In this document: positions 4,591 to 63,827 of the stretch, piece by piece
Layout of the letters: the number at the start of each line of letters is the position of its first letter
How positions within the stretch are numbered: position 1 is the first letter of the stretch
Assembly: GCF_013409985.1 (NCBI RefSeq)
Contig: NZ_JACCBY010000001.1
Location: forward strand, 434,001 to 498,000
Direction: 5' to 3'
DNA from: Sphingomonas melonis
Lineage (GTDB): Bacteria > Pseudomonadota > Alphaproteobacteria > Sphingomonadales > Sphingomonadaceae
Length of the DNA: 64,000 bases
Notes under the pieces: model-generated
What the model saw: the letters and a program-made list of their open reading frames with translations, nothing else
Told to the model about the DNA's origin: nothing
The model's database searches: none
Translations under genes and position numbers: made by a program

Positions 4591-6882
4591 ATGGCCGATA
4601 GCGATACCCCTCCCCGTAAGATCCAGGTGGCGAACAGCCGGCCGGAAGATTCCGGCCGTGGCCTTGCGCATATGCCGCGCAGCCTGATGGCGGCGCTGGG
4701 CGTGGGCGAAGGCGACGTGATCGAGATCGTCGGCAAACAGTCGACGCCGGCGCGCGCGGTCGGCCCCTATACCGAAGACGAAGGCATCGAGGTGCTGCGC
4801 ATCGACGGCCTGCAGCGTGCCAATGCCGGCGTCGGCGCCGGCGATTTCGTCGAGGTGCGCAAGGTCGAATCCAAGCCGGCGACGCGCGTCGTCTTCGCCC
4901 CGGCGCAGGCCAATCTGCGTCTGCAGGGCCAGCCGCAGGCGCTCAAGCGCACCTTCTTCGGCCGTCCGCTGTGCCAGGGCGATGTCGTCGCGACCGCCGG
5001 GCATCAGCGCGTCGGCAACATGCCGCCGGGCATCCAGCAGTTCATGAATGCGCCCGCTTATGCCTTGCAGGAGATCCGCCTTGCGGTCGTCTCGGCGAGC
5101 CCGAAGGGCGTCGTCCATATCGACGAGAATACCGAGATCGAGCTGCGCCCCGAATATGAGGAGCCGACGCAGCGCCGCGCCGACGTGACCTATGACGATA
5201 TCGGCGGCATGGCGACGACGATCGACCAGCTGCGCGAGATGGTCGAACTGCCGCTCCGCTATCCCGAATTGTTCGAACGGCTGGGTGTCGAGCCGCCCAA
5301 GGGGTTGTTGCTCTATGGCCCGCCGGGCACCGGCAAGACGCGCCTCGCCCGCGCGGTCGCCAATGAATCGGACGCCAGCTTCTTCCTGATCAACGGGCCG
5401 GAGATCATGGGCTCGGCCTACGGCGAGTCCGAAGGCCGGTTGCGCGAGATCTTCGAGGAGGCGGCCAAGTCGGCGCCCTCGATCGTCTTCATCGACGAGA
5501 TCGACTCGATCGCGCCCAAGCGCGGCAACGTGCAGGGCGAGGCGGAGAAACGCGTCGTCGCGCAGCTGCTGACGCTGATGGACGGGCTCGAATCGCGCGC
5601 CAATCTCGTCGTCATCGCCGCGACCAACCGGCCCGAGGCGATCGACGAGGCATTGCGCCGGCCGGGCCGCTTCGATCGCGAGATCGTCGTCGGCGTGCCC
5701 GACGAGCGCGGCCGGCGCGAGATCCTGGGCATCCACACCCGCGGCATGCCGCTGGGCGAGAAGGTCGACCTCGCCGAGCTGGCGCGCACCACCTACGGCT
5801 TCGTCGGTGCCGACCTCGCCGCGCTGACCCGCGAAGCGGCGATCGAGGCGGTGCGGCGGATCATGCCCAAGCTCAACCTCGAGGAGCGCACCGTGCCGCC
5901 CGAGGTGCTCGATACCTTGTCGGTGACGCGCGAGGATTTCCTCGGCGCGTTGAAGCGGGTCCAGCCCTCCGCAATGCGCGAGGTGATGGTCGAGGCGCCG
6001 CGCGTGCGCTGGGAGGATGTCGGCGGGCTCGATGCTGCGCAGACCCGGCTCAAGGAGGGGGTCGAACTGCCGCTCAAGGACCCGGATGCGTTCCGGCGGC
6101 TCGGTATCCGGCCGGCCAAGGGCTTCCTGCTCTACGGCCCCCCCGGCACCGGCAAGACCTTGCTCGCCAAGGCGGTCGCGCGCGAGGCGGAGGCGAATTT
6201 CATCGCCACCAAATCGTCGGACCTGCTCAGCAAATGGTATGGCGAGAGCGAGCAGCAGATCACCCGCCTGTTCCAGCGCGCACGCCAGGTCGCGCCGTGC
6301 GTGATCTTCATCGACGAGCTCGACAGCCTGGTGCCGGCGCGTGGCTCGGGCGCGGGTGAGCCGCAGGTGACCGAACGCGTGGTCAATACGATCCTGGCGG
6401 AGATGGACGGGCTGGAGGAGTTGCAGTCGGTCGTCGTGATCGGCGCCACCAACCGGCCCAATCTGATCGATCCGGCGCTGCTGCGGCCGGGCCGGTTCGA
6501 CGAGCTGGTCTATGTCGGCGTCCCCAACACCGAGGGGCGGCGGCGGATCCTGTCGATCCAGACGCAGAAGATGCCGCTGGCCGGCGATGTCGATCTCGAC
6601 GTGGTCGCCAAGCGGACCGATCGCTTCACCGGTGCCGATCTGGAGGACGTGGTGCGCCGCGCCGGCCTGATCGCGCTGCGGCGCTCGCTGCAATCGACCG
6701 AGGTGACGATGGCCGACTTCGAGGAAGCGCTGACCGAATCGCGGGCGAGCGTCACGCCCGAGATGGAGAAGGATTACGAGCAGATCGCCTCGCGCCTGAA
6801 ACAGGATGCGGCGGCGATCCAGCCGCTCGGCTTCATCTCGCCCGGCCAGTTGCAGAGCCGCGGCAGCAAGGCGGATTATTGA
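4591..6882 (+). CDS. CDC48/VAT-type AAA+ ATPase with two ATPase domains
   Basis: A 763-residue homologue of eukaryotic p97/Cdc48 and archaeal VAT. The N-terminal region (about 1-185) has the double-psi-barrel pattern (GRGLAHMPRSLM, VIEIVG). Two AAA cassettes follow. D1 has Walker A GPPGTGKT at 243-250, Walker B IVFIDEIDSI and an intact sensor ATNRPEAID. D2 has Walker A at 516-523, Walker B VIFIDELDSL and ATNRPNLID. Both retain the arginine-finger RPGRFD blocks. It should act as a hexameric protein-unfolding or segregase motor in the cytosol. ATG 4591 is preferred over an in-frame GTG 63 nt upstream because GAGG precedes it and family homology begins there. No proteasome or obvious adaptor gene is adjacent. 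The substrate is unknown. Confidence 0.95.
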   Translation: MADSDTPPRKIQVANSRPEDSGRGLAHMPRSLMAALGVGEGDVIEIVGKQSTPARAVGPYTEDEGIEVLRIDGLQRANAGVGAGDFVEVRKVESKPATRVVFAPAQANLRLQGQPQALKRTFFGRPLCQGDVVATAGHQRVGNMPPGIQQFMNAPAYALQEIRLAVVSASPKGVVHIDENTEIELRPEYEEPTQRRADVTYDDIGGMATTIDQLREMVELPLRYPELFERLGVEPPKGLLLYGPPGTGKTRLARAVANESDASFFLINGPEIMGSAYGESEGRLREIFEEAAKSAPSIVFIDEIDSIAPKRGNVQGEAEKRVVAQLLTLMDGLESRANLVVIAATNRPEAIDEALRRPGRFDREIVVGVPDERGRREILGIHTRGMPLGEKVDLAELARTTYGFVGADLAALTREAAIEAVRRIMPKLNLEERTVPPEVLDTLSVTREDFLGALKRVQPSAMREVMVEAPRVRWEDVGGLDAAQTRLKEGVELPLKDPDAFRRLGIRPAKGFLLYGPPGTGKTLLAKAVAREAEANFIATKSSDLLSKWYGESEQQITRLFQRARQVAPCVIFIDELDSLVPARGSGAGEPQVTERVVNTILAEMDGLEELQSVVVIGATNRPNLIDPALLRPGRFDELVYVGVPNTEGRRRILSIQTQKMPLAGDVDLDVVAKRTDRFTGADLEDVVRRAGLIALRRSLQSTEVTMADFEEALTESRASVTPEMEKDYEQIASRLKQDAAAIQPLGFISPGQLQSRGSKADY

Positions 6883-60945: not shown

Positions 60946-60989
60946 GTCTAGGGTGCATCCGTTTCGGAGGTGATAAGGTCTGGTGGATG

Positions 60990-61016
60990 TTTTCGCGCGT
61001 GGCAGTGGCGCGAAAA
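60990..61016. promoter_or_regulatory. Inverted repeat upstream of the winged-helix regulator, possible operator
   Basis: TTTTCGCGC (60990-60998) and GCGCGAAAA (61008-61016) are perfect inverse copies separated by 9 nt, 50 nt ahead of the next start codon. The spacing between arm centres (18 nt) would suit a dimeric winged-helix regulator, possibly the product of the next gene itself. Confidence 0.45.
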
Positions 61017-61065
61017 TGGAGGTGAATCAGCGCGAACCGTTTTGCGTGCTGCTTATCCTGACAGC

Positions 61066-62076
61066 ATGGGGATCGCGACGTTTGCTGAAGCCGAGACGAT
61101 GGATTGCCGGGCGCGGTCCTATACCGATCGAGGCCGGCCCGTGCTGCTGATCGCCGAGCCCGCCGCCGCGGCGCCGTTCGAGGCCGCGATCGCGCGCGTC
61201 GGTGCGCGGCTGCTGCAGCGGATCGGCTGGGCCGACGTCGCCGCGACGCTGCCAATGCTGGCGGGGCGGCCGACCATCGTCGCAGAGGCCAGCGCCATCG
61301 ATCCCGTCGTGCTCGACACGGTGCTGCCGCTCGTTACGGCGCACATGATGGCCAACGATGTTTCCGCCGTGATCGCATTCGACGAGCCGCACCTCGACCT
61401 CGTCGCGCGCCATTTGCTCGGCCTGTCGGCGGACATGCTCTGCCGTCCGACCGCGGAGCAGCGGGTGGCGAGTCTCGCCGCGACGCTCCGTCCGCCGCTG
61501 CCGGCGCTGCACGACCGCCTGCGCGACGCGGTGCAGACCGATCGCGAGCCGTTCCAATATGACGGGCGCGACAGCGCGGAGGAGCGGCTCCGGCGACTGA
61601 CCGAGGGGATGGAGCGCATCTCGCGCTTCGCCGCCGACGTGATGCGCCACAGCGGCGTGCCCGCCGACCTCGGCGACCGTCGCACCGCCTACGACAGCGA
61701 GCCGGCGACGGCCGGCCTGCCGGTGCGCGCGCAGGATGTCCGCCGCGTCATCCACCGCCGGCAGTTGCGCAGCAAGTTTTTCGGCCAGTTCGGCGGCGAG
61801 GCGCTGTTCGAGGACCCGGCGTGGGACATGCTGCTCGACCTGTTCGCCGCCGAGCTGGAGGGGGTGCAGGTCAGCGTGTCCAGCCTGTGCATCGCCGCGG
61901 GCGTCGCGCCGACCACGGCGCTGCGCTGGATCGCCAAGATGACCGAGATGGAGCTGTTCATCCGCCACCCCGACCCCGCCGACCGCCGCCGCGCCTTCAT
62001 GACGCTCTCCCCCCGCGCCAGCGAGGCGATGCACGCCTATATGATCGCGCTGCGGAAGATCGAGGCGGCGGGGTGA
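61066..62076 (+). CDS. MarR-like winged-helix regulator with N-terminal extension
   Basis: A 336-residue protein. The first 190 residues resemble a small alpha/beta receiver-like domain (VLLIAEPAAAAPFEAAIARVGARLL) but without clear phosphorylation residues. The C-terminal 100 residues form a winged HTH (VSSLCIAAGVAPTTALRWIAKM, then a wing with HPDPADRRRAFMTLS), as in MarR proteins. The start is uncertain: ATG 61066 has no good Shine-Dalgarno. It is the last host gene before the tRNA-Val fragment. A perfect inverted repeat lies upstream (60990-61016). Confidence 0.72.
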   Translation: MGIATFAEAETMDCRARSYTDRGRPVLLIAEPAAAAPFEAAIARVGARLLQRIGWADVAATLPMLAGRPTIVAEASAIDPVVLDTVLPLVTAHMMANDVSAVIAFDEPHLDLVARHLLGLSADMLCRPTAEQRVASLAATLRPPLPALHDRLRDAVQTDREPFQYDGRDSAEERLRRLTEGMERISRFAADVMRHSGVPADLGDRRTAYDSEPATAGLPVRAQDVRRVIHRRQLRSKFFGQFGGEALFEDPAWDMLLDLFAAELEGVQVSVSSLCIAAGVAPTTALRWIAKMTEMELFIRHPDPADRRRAFMTLSPRASEAMHAYMIALRKIEAAG

Positions 62077-62082
62077 TCCTCC

Positions 62083-62133
62083 CCCCTTGCGGATCGCCGT
62101 CAGCTTTGGCAGGGCAGGCGAACCCGCAAGGGG
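62083..62133 (+). terminator. Hairpin after the regulator, touching the tRNA-Val 5' end
   Basis: CCCCTTGCGG (62083-62092) pairs with CCGCAAGGGG (62124-62133) across a 31-nt loop. The right arm overlaps the first two bases of the tRNA acceptor stem. It lies just after the regulator stop but has no T tract, so a termination role is uncertain; alternatively it is a family C-like repeat. Confidence 0.4.
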
Positions 62134-62175
62134 GCGATTAGCTCAGTTGGTAGAGCGTCTCGTTTACACCGAGAG
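62132..62175 (+). pseudogene. 5' part of tRNA-Val (anticodon TAC), truncated by an insertion
   Basis: GGGCGAT (62132-62138, acceptor 5' strand), D-arm GCTC-AGTTGGTA-GAGC, and the anticodon arm TCTCG / CGAGA with loop TTTACAC (anticodon TAC at 62165-62167) match a normal tRNA-Val gene exactly. After about 62175 the expected variable loop, T-arm and acceptor 3' strand (ATCGCCC) are missing, replaced by unrelated sequence that does not fold into a tRNA 3' half. The transition coincides with the change to small phage-like genes, so this is read as the left attachment junction of an integrated element. The complete gene may be restored at its other end. Confidence 0.8.
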
Positions 62176-62233
62176 ATCAGCCCCAAGATACACGGTTCTA
62201 AGCCACTTTGCTTCGCGAACGGAGTGGCAACAG

Positions 62234-62530
62234 ATGCAGAACAATCCCGAATTTGCGGTCCATCCGCGGACCATTAATCAGACGGTCGTATTGACCGATG
62301 TTTACCCAAAGCTACGTGTGCCAGTGCCTGACGACGGCGAGTGGCTGGACTTCTTCATCGCTGACACCACGGCGCGCTATTCGCTGTACTGGCGCTTGAA
62401 CGATGGTTCGCGCGTCGATCCCGACACCGTAGAGTTCGGTCTGATATCGAGCCACAAGAGCATGCAGAGGGCGCAGTCGAAAGCCGCTTGGCTTATCCAT
62501 TCGCAGCTTATGTTGGGGCTAGCAGCATGA
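62234..62530 (+). CDS. Hypothetical protein, integrated-element gene 1
   Basis: A 98-residue protein of unknown family, first gene inside the presumed element. ATG 62234 has a GGAG Shine-Dalgarno 10 nt upstream. A longer frame would read through the tRNA fragment and is rejected. The protein is soluble, with Trp/Tyr-rich segments (DGEWLDFFIADTTARYSLYWRL) and no signal peptide. Codon choice is less GC-biased than in the host genes. Its stop overlaps the next start (ATGA). Confidence 0.7.
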   Translation: MQNNPEFAVHPRTINQTVVLTDVYPKLRVPVPDDGEWLDFFIADTTARYSLYWRLNDGSRVDPDTVEFGLISSHKSMQRAQSKAAWLIHSQLMLGLAA

Positions 62531-62871
62531 GCGGCGTCTGCGCAACATGCGGCTTTCCTTGGGGGATAGATGCCATTCGGCATTCGGACATGTGCGACGG
62601 TCGCCGCCTTGCCATCGCTGATGACGCGGTCGCCGAGATGCTGACGCAAACTGACGAGCAAATTCTTGCCTCCTCCACGCCAGAGGAAATCGATGCCGCC
62701 TGTAAGCTGCACGGCTCAATCATGGCCACCAGTGAACGCATGTCTGTCATCGCCTTTCTCCGCAACGGCGGCCAGACGATTAGGGGGCAGTGGTTCGCGT
62801 GGGACATGGAGATGCGTGGCTACGCCAAAAGCTTCGCAGACATGATCGAGCGGGAGGACCACAACCAATGA
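62527..62871 (+). CDS. Hypothetical protein with possible zinc-binding N-terminus
   Basis: A 114-residue protein of unknown family. The N-terminus shows C5-x2-C8 and, after ten residues, H19-x3-C23 (MSGVCATCGFPW...RHSDMC), a spacing able to bind one zinc ion. The remainder is helical and acidic. It overlaps both neighbours by four bases (ATGA at each end), the compact style of phage accessory gene runs. No function can be assigned. Confidence 0.65.
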   Translation: MSGVCATCGFPWGIDAIRHSDMCDGRRLAIADDAVAEMLTQTDEQILASSTPEEIDAACKLHGSIMATSERMSVIAFLRNGGQTIRGQWFAWDMEMRGYAKSFADMIEREDHNQ

Positions 62872-63035
62872 CGCAGGAAGTCGCGCCCACGCTCTACGCC
62901 GCTTTGGTCGAGGCAAAGAAGGCCTTGTGGATGGAGCACCGCCACATGTGGAACCTCGAAGACTTCAACAATTTCGCCGTCGTGCAGCAGATTAATGCTG
63001 CCCTGACGCGCGCCGATGGAAAGGTCCGTCCATGA
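62868..63035 (+). CDS. Hypothetical small protein, element gene 3
   Basis: A 55-residue protein (starts MTQEVAPTLYAALVEAKKAL) predicted to be mostly helical, with an aromatic centre (WMEHRHMWNLEDFNNF). ATG 62868 overlaps the previous stop, and its own stop overlaps the next start. No family is recognised. Confidence 0.6.
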   Translation: MTQEVAPTLYAALVEAKKALWMEHRHMWNLEDFNNFAVVQQINAALTRADGKVRP

Positions 63036-63340
63036 GCGACAATATGCCTGTAGCGTGTCCGAACGTTCGCACGGAATGGGACATGGCTCTGTCCGCTATC
63101 GCAGCCGGCAACGCTGCTACGCTCGACGTTGCTGAGGCAATGCGCGGTGACATGCCGATCGGAGACAACCTCCGCCATCGCGAGACGGCTTACCAGATGG
63201 CCGACGCGCTCCGCTCGGTTCTCGCGCTGCTGCATGGCGCACCGCCTGAATATGAGAACCTCGACCAGCGAGGGCAGTACGATGACGGCTGCCGGCTGCT
63301 CGTCGCGGTTCAAGAATACCTTGAGGGGTGGGAAGCATGA
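63032..63340 (+). CDS. Hypothetical protein, element gene 4
   Basis: A 102-residue soluble, acidic, mainly helical protein beginning MSDNMPVACPNVRTEWDM. No motif is recognised. It is coupled to both neighbours by ATGA overlaps. A pattern of two related helices (MALSAIAAGNAATLDVAEAM and YQMADALRSVLALLHGA) suggests a small helical bundle. Confidence 0.65.
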   Translation: MSDNMPVACPNVRTEWDMALSAIAAGNAATLDVAEAMRGDMPIGDNLRHRETAYQMADALRSVLALLHGAPPEYENLDQRGQYDDGCRLLVAVQEYLEGWEA

Positions 63341-63645
63341 CGGCCGATGAGATCAAGAGCATCATTCGCACATGGCTTGACGCTGACGATGCAACCCATT
63401 GGGGCGCATTTGAACAAGCGCTTGATGCGGCTACATCCGGCGAAACAGAGCGCTCGCTGATCGTATCAATGTTGCGATCAGACGCGAAAACGATGCGTGA
63501 GAACGCGAACGCATACAGCGAAGAAGCGCCATCTGACGCCCGCGCTCTGCATGAGGTGGCTGCTACTCTAGCTTTCAAAGCTGCGCAGATAGAGCGCGGC
63601 GATCATTATTTGCAGCTTCTAGATCAGCATAGGGAGGCGCTGTGA
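63337..63645 (+). CDS. Hypothetical protein, element gene 5
   Basis: A 102-residue helical protein starting MTADEIKSIIRTWLDADDAT at ATG 63337, overlapping the previous stop (ATGA). It is rich in Ala, Glu and Asp with no recognised motif. Codon use is clearly less GC-biased than in host genes (gcg and gaa mixed with act, gct, tta-like choices). Confidence 0.62.
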   Translation: MTADEIKSIIRTWLDADDATHWGAFEQALDAATSGETERSLIVSMLRSDAKTMRENANAYSEEAPSDARALHEVAATLAFKAAQIERGDHYLQLLDQHREAL

Positions 63646-63827
63646 TGTCTATCCATAATCTACGACTAGACGAAATTCAGCAGGCACTTTTTGACGCGCA
63701 ATCTGTAGAGTCTCTGATTGCGCCAGACGAAATGCCTGATCTACCTATGGCAGTGGCTACTCAAAGGCATGTTGTTAGCTTCCTGCAACGGCTGTGGGAC
63801 GCCAAGCTTGCCGACGTTGTAAAGTGA
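63645..63827 (+). CDS. Hypothetical small protein, element gene 6
   Basis: A 60-residue protein (MSIHNLRLDEIQQALFDAQS) starting at ATG 63645, which shares its first base with the previous stop (TGATG); AGGGAGG lies 7 nt upstream, a strong Shine-Dalgarno. A GTG one codon earlier is also possible. No family is recognised; acidic and helical. Confidence 0.62.
   Translation: MSIHNLRLDEIQQALFDAQSVESLIAPDEMPDLPMAVATQRHVVSFLQRLWDAKLADVVK

Follow-up and report, generated by a model that had tools for sequence, protein, structure and literature searches.

A probable 44-kb prophage at the 5′ half of the only tRNA-Val(TAC) gene in a Sphingomonas melonis genome, and an integrase clade found in both orientations on that tRNA

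Why does a tRNA-Val gene of Sphingomonas melonis end just after its anticodon stem, and where is the rest of it? The window, the whole stretch of 64,000 nucleotides analysed here, corresponds to C1:434001-498000 of a 4.41-Mb genome in 14 contigs, and positions given without a contig name are window positions. An earlier note on this DNA had described a tRNA-Val(TAC) 5′ half that stops after the anticodon stem with its 3′ half missing, and had read it as the left end of an element integrated through an anticodon-region attachment site. The junction carries the following features.

60970..62076, + strand: host gene left of the site, an ORF of 368 aa with orthologues near the empty site in relatives
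62087..62115, + strand: putative native tRNA-Val promoter, TTGCGG-N17-CAGGGC, recognised from its letters and now upstream of the fragment and the left operon
62132..62174, + strand: attL, the displaced 5′ fragment, nt 1-43 of tRNA-Val(TAC), a 43-bp direct repeat
62163..62169, + strand: anticodon loop TTTACAC, flanked by TCTCG and CGAGA, the putative 7-bp overlap region of strand exchange

The final base of the fragment is the last base of the anticodon stem, and the sequence after 62174 is unrelated to any tRNA 3′ half. The Rfam model RF00005 scored the fragment at 28.8 bits against a gathering score of 29, while the intact copy described below scored 68.8 bits. ARAGORN reported 62131-62216 as tRNA-Val(TAC) with an 86-nt span, which we read as a spurious full-length prediction; annotation of such sites calls for caution, since a truncated tRNA-Val that passes as a full gene in ARAGORN could lead automatic annotation to count a single-copy gene twice. 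The host gene to the left has a weak C-terminal winged-helix match (HTH_27), slightly below the Pfam cut-off. We also observed a perfect 11-bp inverted repeat with arms at 62082-62092 and 62124-62134, spaced by 31 nt, whose left arm overlaps the presumed native −35 and whose right arm overlaps the first bases of the fragment; these two arms are the only matches to the 11-mer in the window, against 0.05 expected.

The earlier note had suggested looking to the right along the contig. The genome contains a single further identical copy of the 43-bp block, at C1:540098-540140 (E 5e-15), 43,966 bp downstream of the first and beyond the window. The repeat is exactly 43 bp: identity has no leftward extension and stops at 62174, at the end of the anticodon stem and inside the 62160-62180 interval where the left boundary had been placed. 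The right copy forms the front of an intact tRNA-Val(TAC) at C1:540098-540173 that ends in CCA, so the expected rebuilding of the tRNA at the far end is borne out. An integrase had been anticipated near either end, and a tyrosine integrase gene of 407 aa (C1:538864-540087) is directed at the restored tRNA, with its stop codon 10 bp before it; the protein matches PF00589 and PF13102 above cut-offs and belongs to phrog_1 (integrase, PHROGs). Both junctions lie on one 1.41-Mb contig, so the assembly break that the note had named as a possible objection does not separate them in this assembly. A whole-genome search with the tRNA returned the intact gene, the 43-nt fragment and a next best match of only 74% identity, which makes tRNA-Val(TAC) single copy in this assembly. 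Because the repeat is nt 1-43, the element supplies the 5′ half of the working tRNA together with its upstream region, and the native upstream region remains with the 5′ fragment at the left end. The rebuilt tRNA is thereby deprived of its own upstream region, a consequence that goes beyond the earlier note, as does the occurrence, described below, of one integrase clade in both orientations.

The DNA between the two copies differs in composition from the host part of the window (G+C 0.630 versus 0.695) and encodes a tailed phage. Matches to PHROGs and Pfam, which come from a part of the element's ORFs, include a portal, a major head protein, head closure Hc3, adaptor Ad3, DNA ejection, the terminase large subunit and an endolysin, so that structural, packaging and lysis genes are all present, along with an O-like replication initiation protein, a YqaJ recombinase, a DNA methyltransferase, HNH endonucleases and a weak CII-like match. 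The left end begins with a set of short genes, all on the + strand, that we call the left operon.

62234..62530, + strand: leading gene of the left operon (98 aa), without a family match; its start codon is at +71 from the loop
62527-62871, + strand: left operon gene, ORF
62868-63035, + strand: left operon gene, ORF
63032-63340, + strand: left operon gene, ORF
63337-63645, + strand: left operon gene, ORF
63645-63827, + strand: left operon gene, ORF

The five genes from 62527 to 63827 mostly have overlapping stop and start codons, and none of the six left-operon genes within the window had a PHROG match. Among the structural genes we observed a 679-aa protein with a SASA carbohydrate esterase domain (C1:515687-517726, minus strand; L004:1687-3726), which may be a tail protein that modifies a receptor. 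Two overlapping ORFs of 245 and 244 aa (C1:521514-522982, minus strand; L004:7514-8982) represent the terminase large subunit, and each of them also matches its own PHROG family; this may be a natural split or a break, and the phage may therefore be defective. An IMG/VR record (L134) holds an identical integrase (100%) and an identical restored tRNA and, if colinear, begins about 2.2 kb inside the true left end.

Two genomes of the same genus, G017 and G008, have an empty site at this locus, which provides the comparison with element-free relatives that the earlier note had proposed. In G017 the intact tRNA adjoins the same right-hand genes and the left-hand gene (71% identity) lies about 0.7 kb off; in G008 the intact tRNA adjoins the left-hand gene (48-49%) and the right-hand gene lies 1.9 kb off. 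When the two flanks of the element are joined, the resulting tRNA is identical to that of G017. A truncated tRNA shared by relatives that lack a right-hand junction, which the note had considered as a possible refutation, is not the picture in either genome. Additional ORFs occupy the empty sites, one of 189 aa between the tRNA and the left-hand gene in G017 (L036:10081-10800) and one of 576 aa, by eye sensor-kinase-like, on the right in G008 (L037:13658-15515), so the flanks of this tRNA turn over. A synteny search with the right-hand gene gave matches in 62 of 100 genomes, and among the 30 loci examined the tRNA lay within the flank only in the source genome (G000) and G017, that of G008 being 1.9 kb away; G137, which ranks third after G000 by its left-hand gene, had no tRNA in the locus examined.

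The terminal repeats, the adjacent tyrosine integrase, the phage genes and the empty site in relatives support the reading of the truncated tRNA-Val as one end of an integrated element. We conclude, with a probability of roughly 0.93, that a temperate tailed prophage of 44 kb extends from window position 62132 to C1:540140 in the sole tRNA-Val(TAC) gene and has replaced its 5′ half. The displaced 5′ fragment lies upstream and the integrase precedes the tRNA on the same strand, the arrangement of a 5′-fragment, SIT-shaped integration.

Is this orientation a fixed property of the integrase? Among 397 genomes drawn from the family, 14 including G000 contained an integrase match at E 1e-20 or better, and in six relatives the match was near full length at 43-58% identity. 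All six integrases adjoin a tRNA-Val at their 3′ end. We assigned each integrase a class by the strand of the tRNA or half tRNA that follows it: G428 and G143 share the orientation of G000 (5′ class), whereas G206, G210, G344 and G192 have the opposite one (3′ class), the gene in G192 being tRNA-Val(CAC). Direct repeats, found in five of these six close relatives (G344 lies on a 13.9-kb contig), agree with the classes: they span nt 1-41 in G428 and nt 1-43 in G143, against nt 27-76 in G206, 28-75 in G210 and 25-75 in G192. Some related viral contigs carry a half tRNA after the integrase, as in an attP.

A broader set of 15 genomes, searched with one tRNA-Val(TAC) from L127 so that extents denote similarity to that query, gave the same division (L113, L116 and L125 are taken to be the genomes of G206, G344 and G143). 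All five 5′-class genomes contain a fragment from nt 1 to nt 40-45, and eight of the ten 3′-class genomes contain one that starts at nt 24-29 and runs to nt 76, except that in L116 both the fragment and the intact gene match only to nt 68. In the other two 3′-class genomes, L126 and L128, the prophage sits in a tRNA-Val(CAC) gene and is invisible to the TAC query. Fragment and intact gene lie on one contig in four of the five 5′-class genomes (all but L114) and three of the eight 3′-class genomes; elsewhere the pairing is based on class, not on joined sequence. The L119 genome has a second, weaker 3′ match, and the L128 genome also holds a 5′ fragment of tRNA-Val(TAC), nt 1-38 (G546:C27:40619-40656), a sign of a further 5′-class element. 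G534 (L115) has an intact tRNA-Val at C33:125522-125597 and two 5′ fragments, at C33:166366-166405 (nt 1-40) and C32:18253-18295 (nt 1-43); the L115 integrase is followed directly by a fragment, not by the intact tRNA, which lies 41 kb away on the same contig. One fragment on the contig of the intact tRNA and one elsewhere is as expected of a tandem pair, and this genome looks like a case of two 5′-class elements in tandem on one tRNA.

The repeats of the two classes overlap only in the anticodon arm, TCTCG-TTTACAC-CGAGA in G000, which places the crossover in that arm, as judged from the repeat ends. Tyrosine integrases generally work in a way that would put strand exchange within the loop itself, and in G000 a crossover at 62163-62169 is likely. 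The anticodon stem would then offer identical half-sites in both directions, so that the integrase could take either orientation of the core and only the 7-bp overlap would have to match. Besides the overlap, the half tRNA carried by the phage would have to match as well. Members of the clade also lie beside other tRNAs, L129 beside tRNA-Gly(GCC) and L147 and L164 beside tRNA-Thr, while L173 and L175 have, by eye, a tRNA-Thr-like half, so the clade changes its target tRNA too. The far more distant integrases L079 (29%) and L081 (28%) likewise adjoin a tRNA-Val, with anticodon GAC.

What stays in place when the core is turned? With the first base of the anticodon-loop 7-mer as the reference point, a 9-bp direct repeat, TGC[GT]G[AT]CCA, occurs at about −179, −130 and −119 in the last codons of the integrase and at about +91 and +102 within the first left-operon gene. 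The copies in G000 are the following.

62254..62262, + strand: arm-like repeat TGCGGTCCA, putative integrase arm site, +91 from the loop
62265..62273, + strand: arm-like repeat CGCGGACCA, putative integrase arm site, +102 from the loop
L005:5951-5959, 6000-6008 and 6011-6019: integrase-side copies of the repeat

With at most one mismatch, the repeat was present at about −130 in 29 of 42 rows, at −119 in 29 of 42 and at −179 in 21 of 42; among rows that cover the interior side it was present at +91 in 15 of 18 and at +102 in 13 of 18, compared with 43 of 5124 control windows, though this repeat, like the promoter-like motif below, had been noticed in these same rows before it was counted. The repeats keep fixed distances on either side of the core, where a heterobivalent, lambda-like integrase would bind arm-type sites, and by their placement they look like such sites. 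Their positions and direction are equal in the 5′ and 3′ classes; what turns is thus the core alone, together with the half tRNA it carries. In nine of 22 elements examined, from both classes, an ORF begins at +70 to +72.

A rebuilt tRNA that has lost its native upstream region raises the question of what transcribes it. We found TTG-N17-TA between 70 nt upstream and 30 nt downstream of the integrase stop codon in 25 of 53 rows, as opposed to six of 1142 control windows in the integrase body, and each other spacing from 13 to 21 occurred in at most six of 53 rows. The start of the site lies 80-85 nt before the loop wherever this is measurable. A Caulobacter-type promoter consensus was set aside in favour of the 17-nt spacing. 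By class, the motif is present in seven of ten 5′, 15 of 34 3′ (one of them, L177, spurious because its site lies inside the tRNA) and three of nine unlabelled rows, so enrichment in the 5′ class is not significant (Fisher p 0.28) and the motif as a speciality of that class is ruled out; being common to both, it did not arise to serve the tRNA. The remaining 28 of 53 rows have no such motif. G000 itself fails the strict form and has TTGACA-N17-CAGAGT 82 nt before the loop, with a −10 that resembles the −10 of the presumed native promoter, whereas L114 and L115, both of the 5′ class, have no clear promoter-like site. Upstream of the tRNA, G008 and G206 are by eye similar to the putative native promoter, and G017 is not.

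In the circular phage, a sigma-70-like site that overlaps the 3′ end of the integrase gene would read through attP into the left operon. After 5′-class integration the same site would become the promoter of tRNA-Val, and the native tRNA promoter would read via the 5′ fragment and on into the left operon; the first start codon of that operon follows the fragment's end by 60 bases. After 3′-class integration the phage site would instead read antisense to the tRNA, which would retain its own promoter. Judged from the placement of these promoter-like letters, integration has perhaps a slightly better than even chance of exchanging promoters between the phage and tRNA-Val. The fuller proposal, in which the core is invertible, the arms and an outward promoter are fixed, and the exchange is reciprocal, with the phage promoter passing to an essential tRNA and the tRNA promoter to the left operon, is tentative and stands for us somewhat short of even. 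A phage might acquire the other half of the tRNA by reverse integration where the overlap matches and then imprecise excision, or alternatively by recombination between co-resident elements of the two classes.

The alternative that survives best is that no promoters are exchanged: TTG-N17-TA would be a binding site for the integrase or an accessory protein, or a by-product of a conserved integrase tail, and the tRNA would be transcribed by read-through from the integrase gene or from another promoter. This would agree with the presence of the motif in both classes, with the arm-like repeats close to it and with its overlap with integrase codons; indeed, in most rows that have the motif, TAG is the integrase stop and the −35 falls within the coding sequence, so a cause at the protein level is possible. 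The preference for a spacing of 17 speaks against it, however, as does the fact that in G428, L133, L163 and L170 the stop codon lies elsewhere while the motif still stands 83-84 nt before the loop, which argues against a purely coding cause. tRNA-Val(TAC) is also single copy, and an integrase gene is expected to be silent in a lysogen, which counts against read-through. We regard this alternative as a serious one, with perhaps a third of the probability on its side.

Whether the two classes instead represent two integrase lineages, each fixed in one orientation, can be judged from the integrase tree. Our scans yielded 21 integrase loci in named genomes and 44 in viral contigs; of 69 integrases considered for the tree, nine were dropped (seven identical copies, plus L137 and L168, which nearly duplicate G210 and L167, respectively), L113, L116 and L125 stood in for G206, G344 and G143, and the distant L075-L081 were left out. 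The 60 rows retained comprise ten of the 5′ class, 34 of the 3′ class, three of which sit in tRNA-Gly or tRNA-Thr genes, and 16 unlabelled, giving 44 with a class. Class is clustered on the tree, as separate lineages would predict: several groups are wholly of the 3′ class, and the six orientation changes compare with a mean of 9.1-9.2 after shuffling, a count as low being reached in four or seven of 500 shuffles. Against lineages fixed in one orientation stand the six changes themselves, a count that the bootstrap trees also give at both their 5% and 95% points. Well-supported branches force at least four of these changes, and they place the 5′ pairs L114/L115 with L148 and L125/L165 with L133, both of the 3′ class. 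A single 5′ clade was rejected by the AU test (p-AU 3.8e-67, at a cost of 314.7 log-likelihood units). One caveat is that L127, one of the ten 5′ rows, sits on a long branch in an unsure position, as does the unlabelled L144. Two fixed lineages thus seem very improbable, and comparison of these integrases and their sites shows one clade that, as read from its sequences, has switched repeatedly between 3′-half and 5′-half replacement on the same tRNA.

Two further readings of the truncated gene fare no better. An origin by gene decay, duplication or misassembly, independent of the right-hand copy, is a general possibility for any such fragment, but it is scarcely credible given an identity of exactly nt 1-43, a single contig, an integrase at the copy, empty sites in relatives, the same layout in other genomes, and L134 with its matching integrase and restored tRNA. 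tRNA-dependent lysogeny, in which a temperate phage splits a host tRNA gene and makes good the loss with a phage-borne tRNA gene, as described for actinobacteriophages in the accessible part of one paper (PMC10865867), is refuted here because attR holds an intact tRNA; moreover, the two ends share 43 bp where about 10 would be expected, and ARAGORN found no tRNA across the element besides the two att copies.

The configuration of this prophage junction is uncommon but known, given surveys whose accessible portions we draw on here. Of the 3919 islands in Islander, 159 have a 5′ fragment and 3760 replace the 3′ half; the 5′-fragment islands resemble our element in having the 5′ tRNA fragment at one end, the restored tRNA at the other and the integrase between, and the Islander site types also include an anticodon-centred crossover (PMC4383910). 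In the survey of the KplE1 paper, SIT and OD shapes together make up less than 8% of 1273 integrase/tRNA pairs, and SIT pairs, like ours, have the integrase before the tRNA on the same strand (PMC2951348). The clade studied here differs in that SIT (5′ class) and OC (3′ class) occur within it at the same crossover site. As far as the accessible parts of these two papers go, Islander does not describe an integrase clade that alternates between the two fragment types on one tRNA (PMC4383910), and the KplE1 survey classed shapes and did not trace them on an integrase tree (PMC2951348). We found no account in the open-licence literature of orientation switching within one integrase clade, and repeated inversion of the core around fixed arms was not found described, though we make no claim of priority. 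A literature search for Sphingomonas prophages in tRNA-Val gave only one paper, about a Pseudomonas genome. The closest integrase in the phage collection searched was that of Sphingobium phage Lacusarx (40.5% over 98% of the length), a phage of 130 kb, unlike the 44-kb element here; the record taken as Lacusarx (L171) had no significant tRNA-Val match after its integrase gene.

Precedents for the proposed promoter exchange are partial. The pTN3-like archaeal integrases, like this one, have their attachment site in the 5′ half of a tRNA gene (PMC8371274, PMC5495485), and the part of the review available to us states that the integrase promoter drives the restored tRNA and that a comparable case is seldom encountered in bacteria, citing Williams 2002 (PMC8371274). 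Those elements are archaeal, whereas here a bacterial phage has a putative promoter at the 3′ end of the integrase gene. In ICEKp1 the host tRNA promoter drives the integrase gene once the element is integrated, and as in our proposal integration switches the promoter of an att-adjacent gene and the element uses the host tRNA promoter (PMC13023037, as far as accessible). ICEKp1 is the experimental precedent for an att-dependent change of promoter. Unlike in ICEKp1, the integrase gene here lies at the end opposite the native upstream region, so the host tRNA promoter would not drive it; the left operon would be driven instead, and the tRNA would receive a phage promoter.

If the promoter exchange is true, the left operon would be transcribed whether the phage is free or integrated, and the lysogen would rely on a phage promoter for its tRNA-Val. 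tRNA genes are very common landing sites for mobile DNA, and most described elements keep the tRNA promoter by replacing the 3′ half (PMC4383910, in its accessible part). The orientation pattern at the level of the family is the part most worth following: with the rest of attP little changed, this clade is a natural experiment on the rarity of 5′-half replacement. The limit may be the integrase, which seems indifferent to orientation, or it may be the requirement that the element supply an adequate promoter for an essential tRNA.
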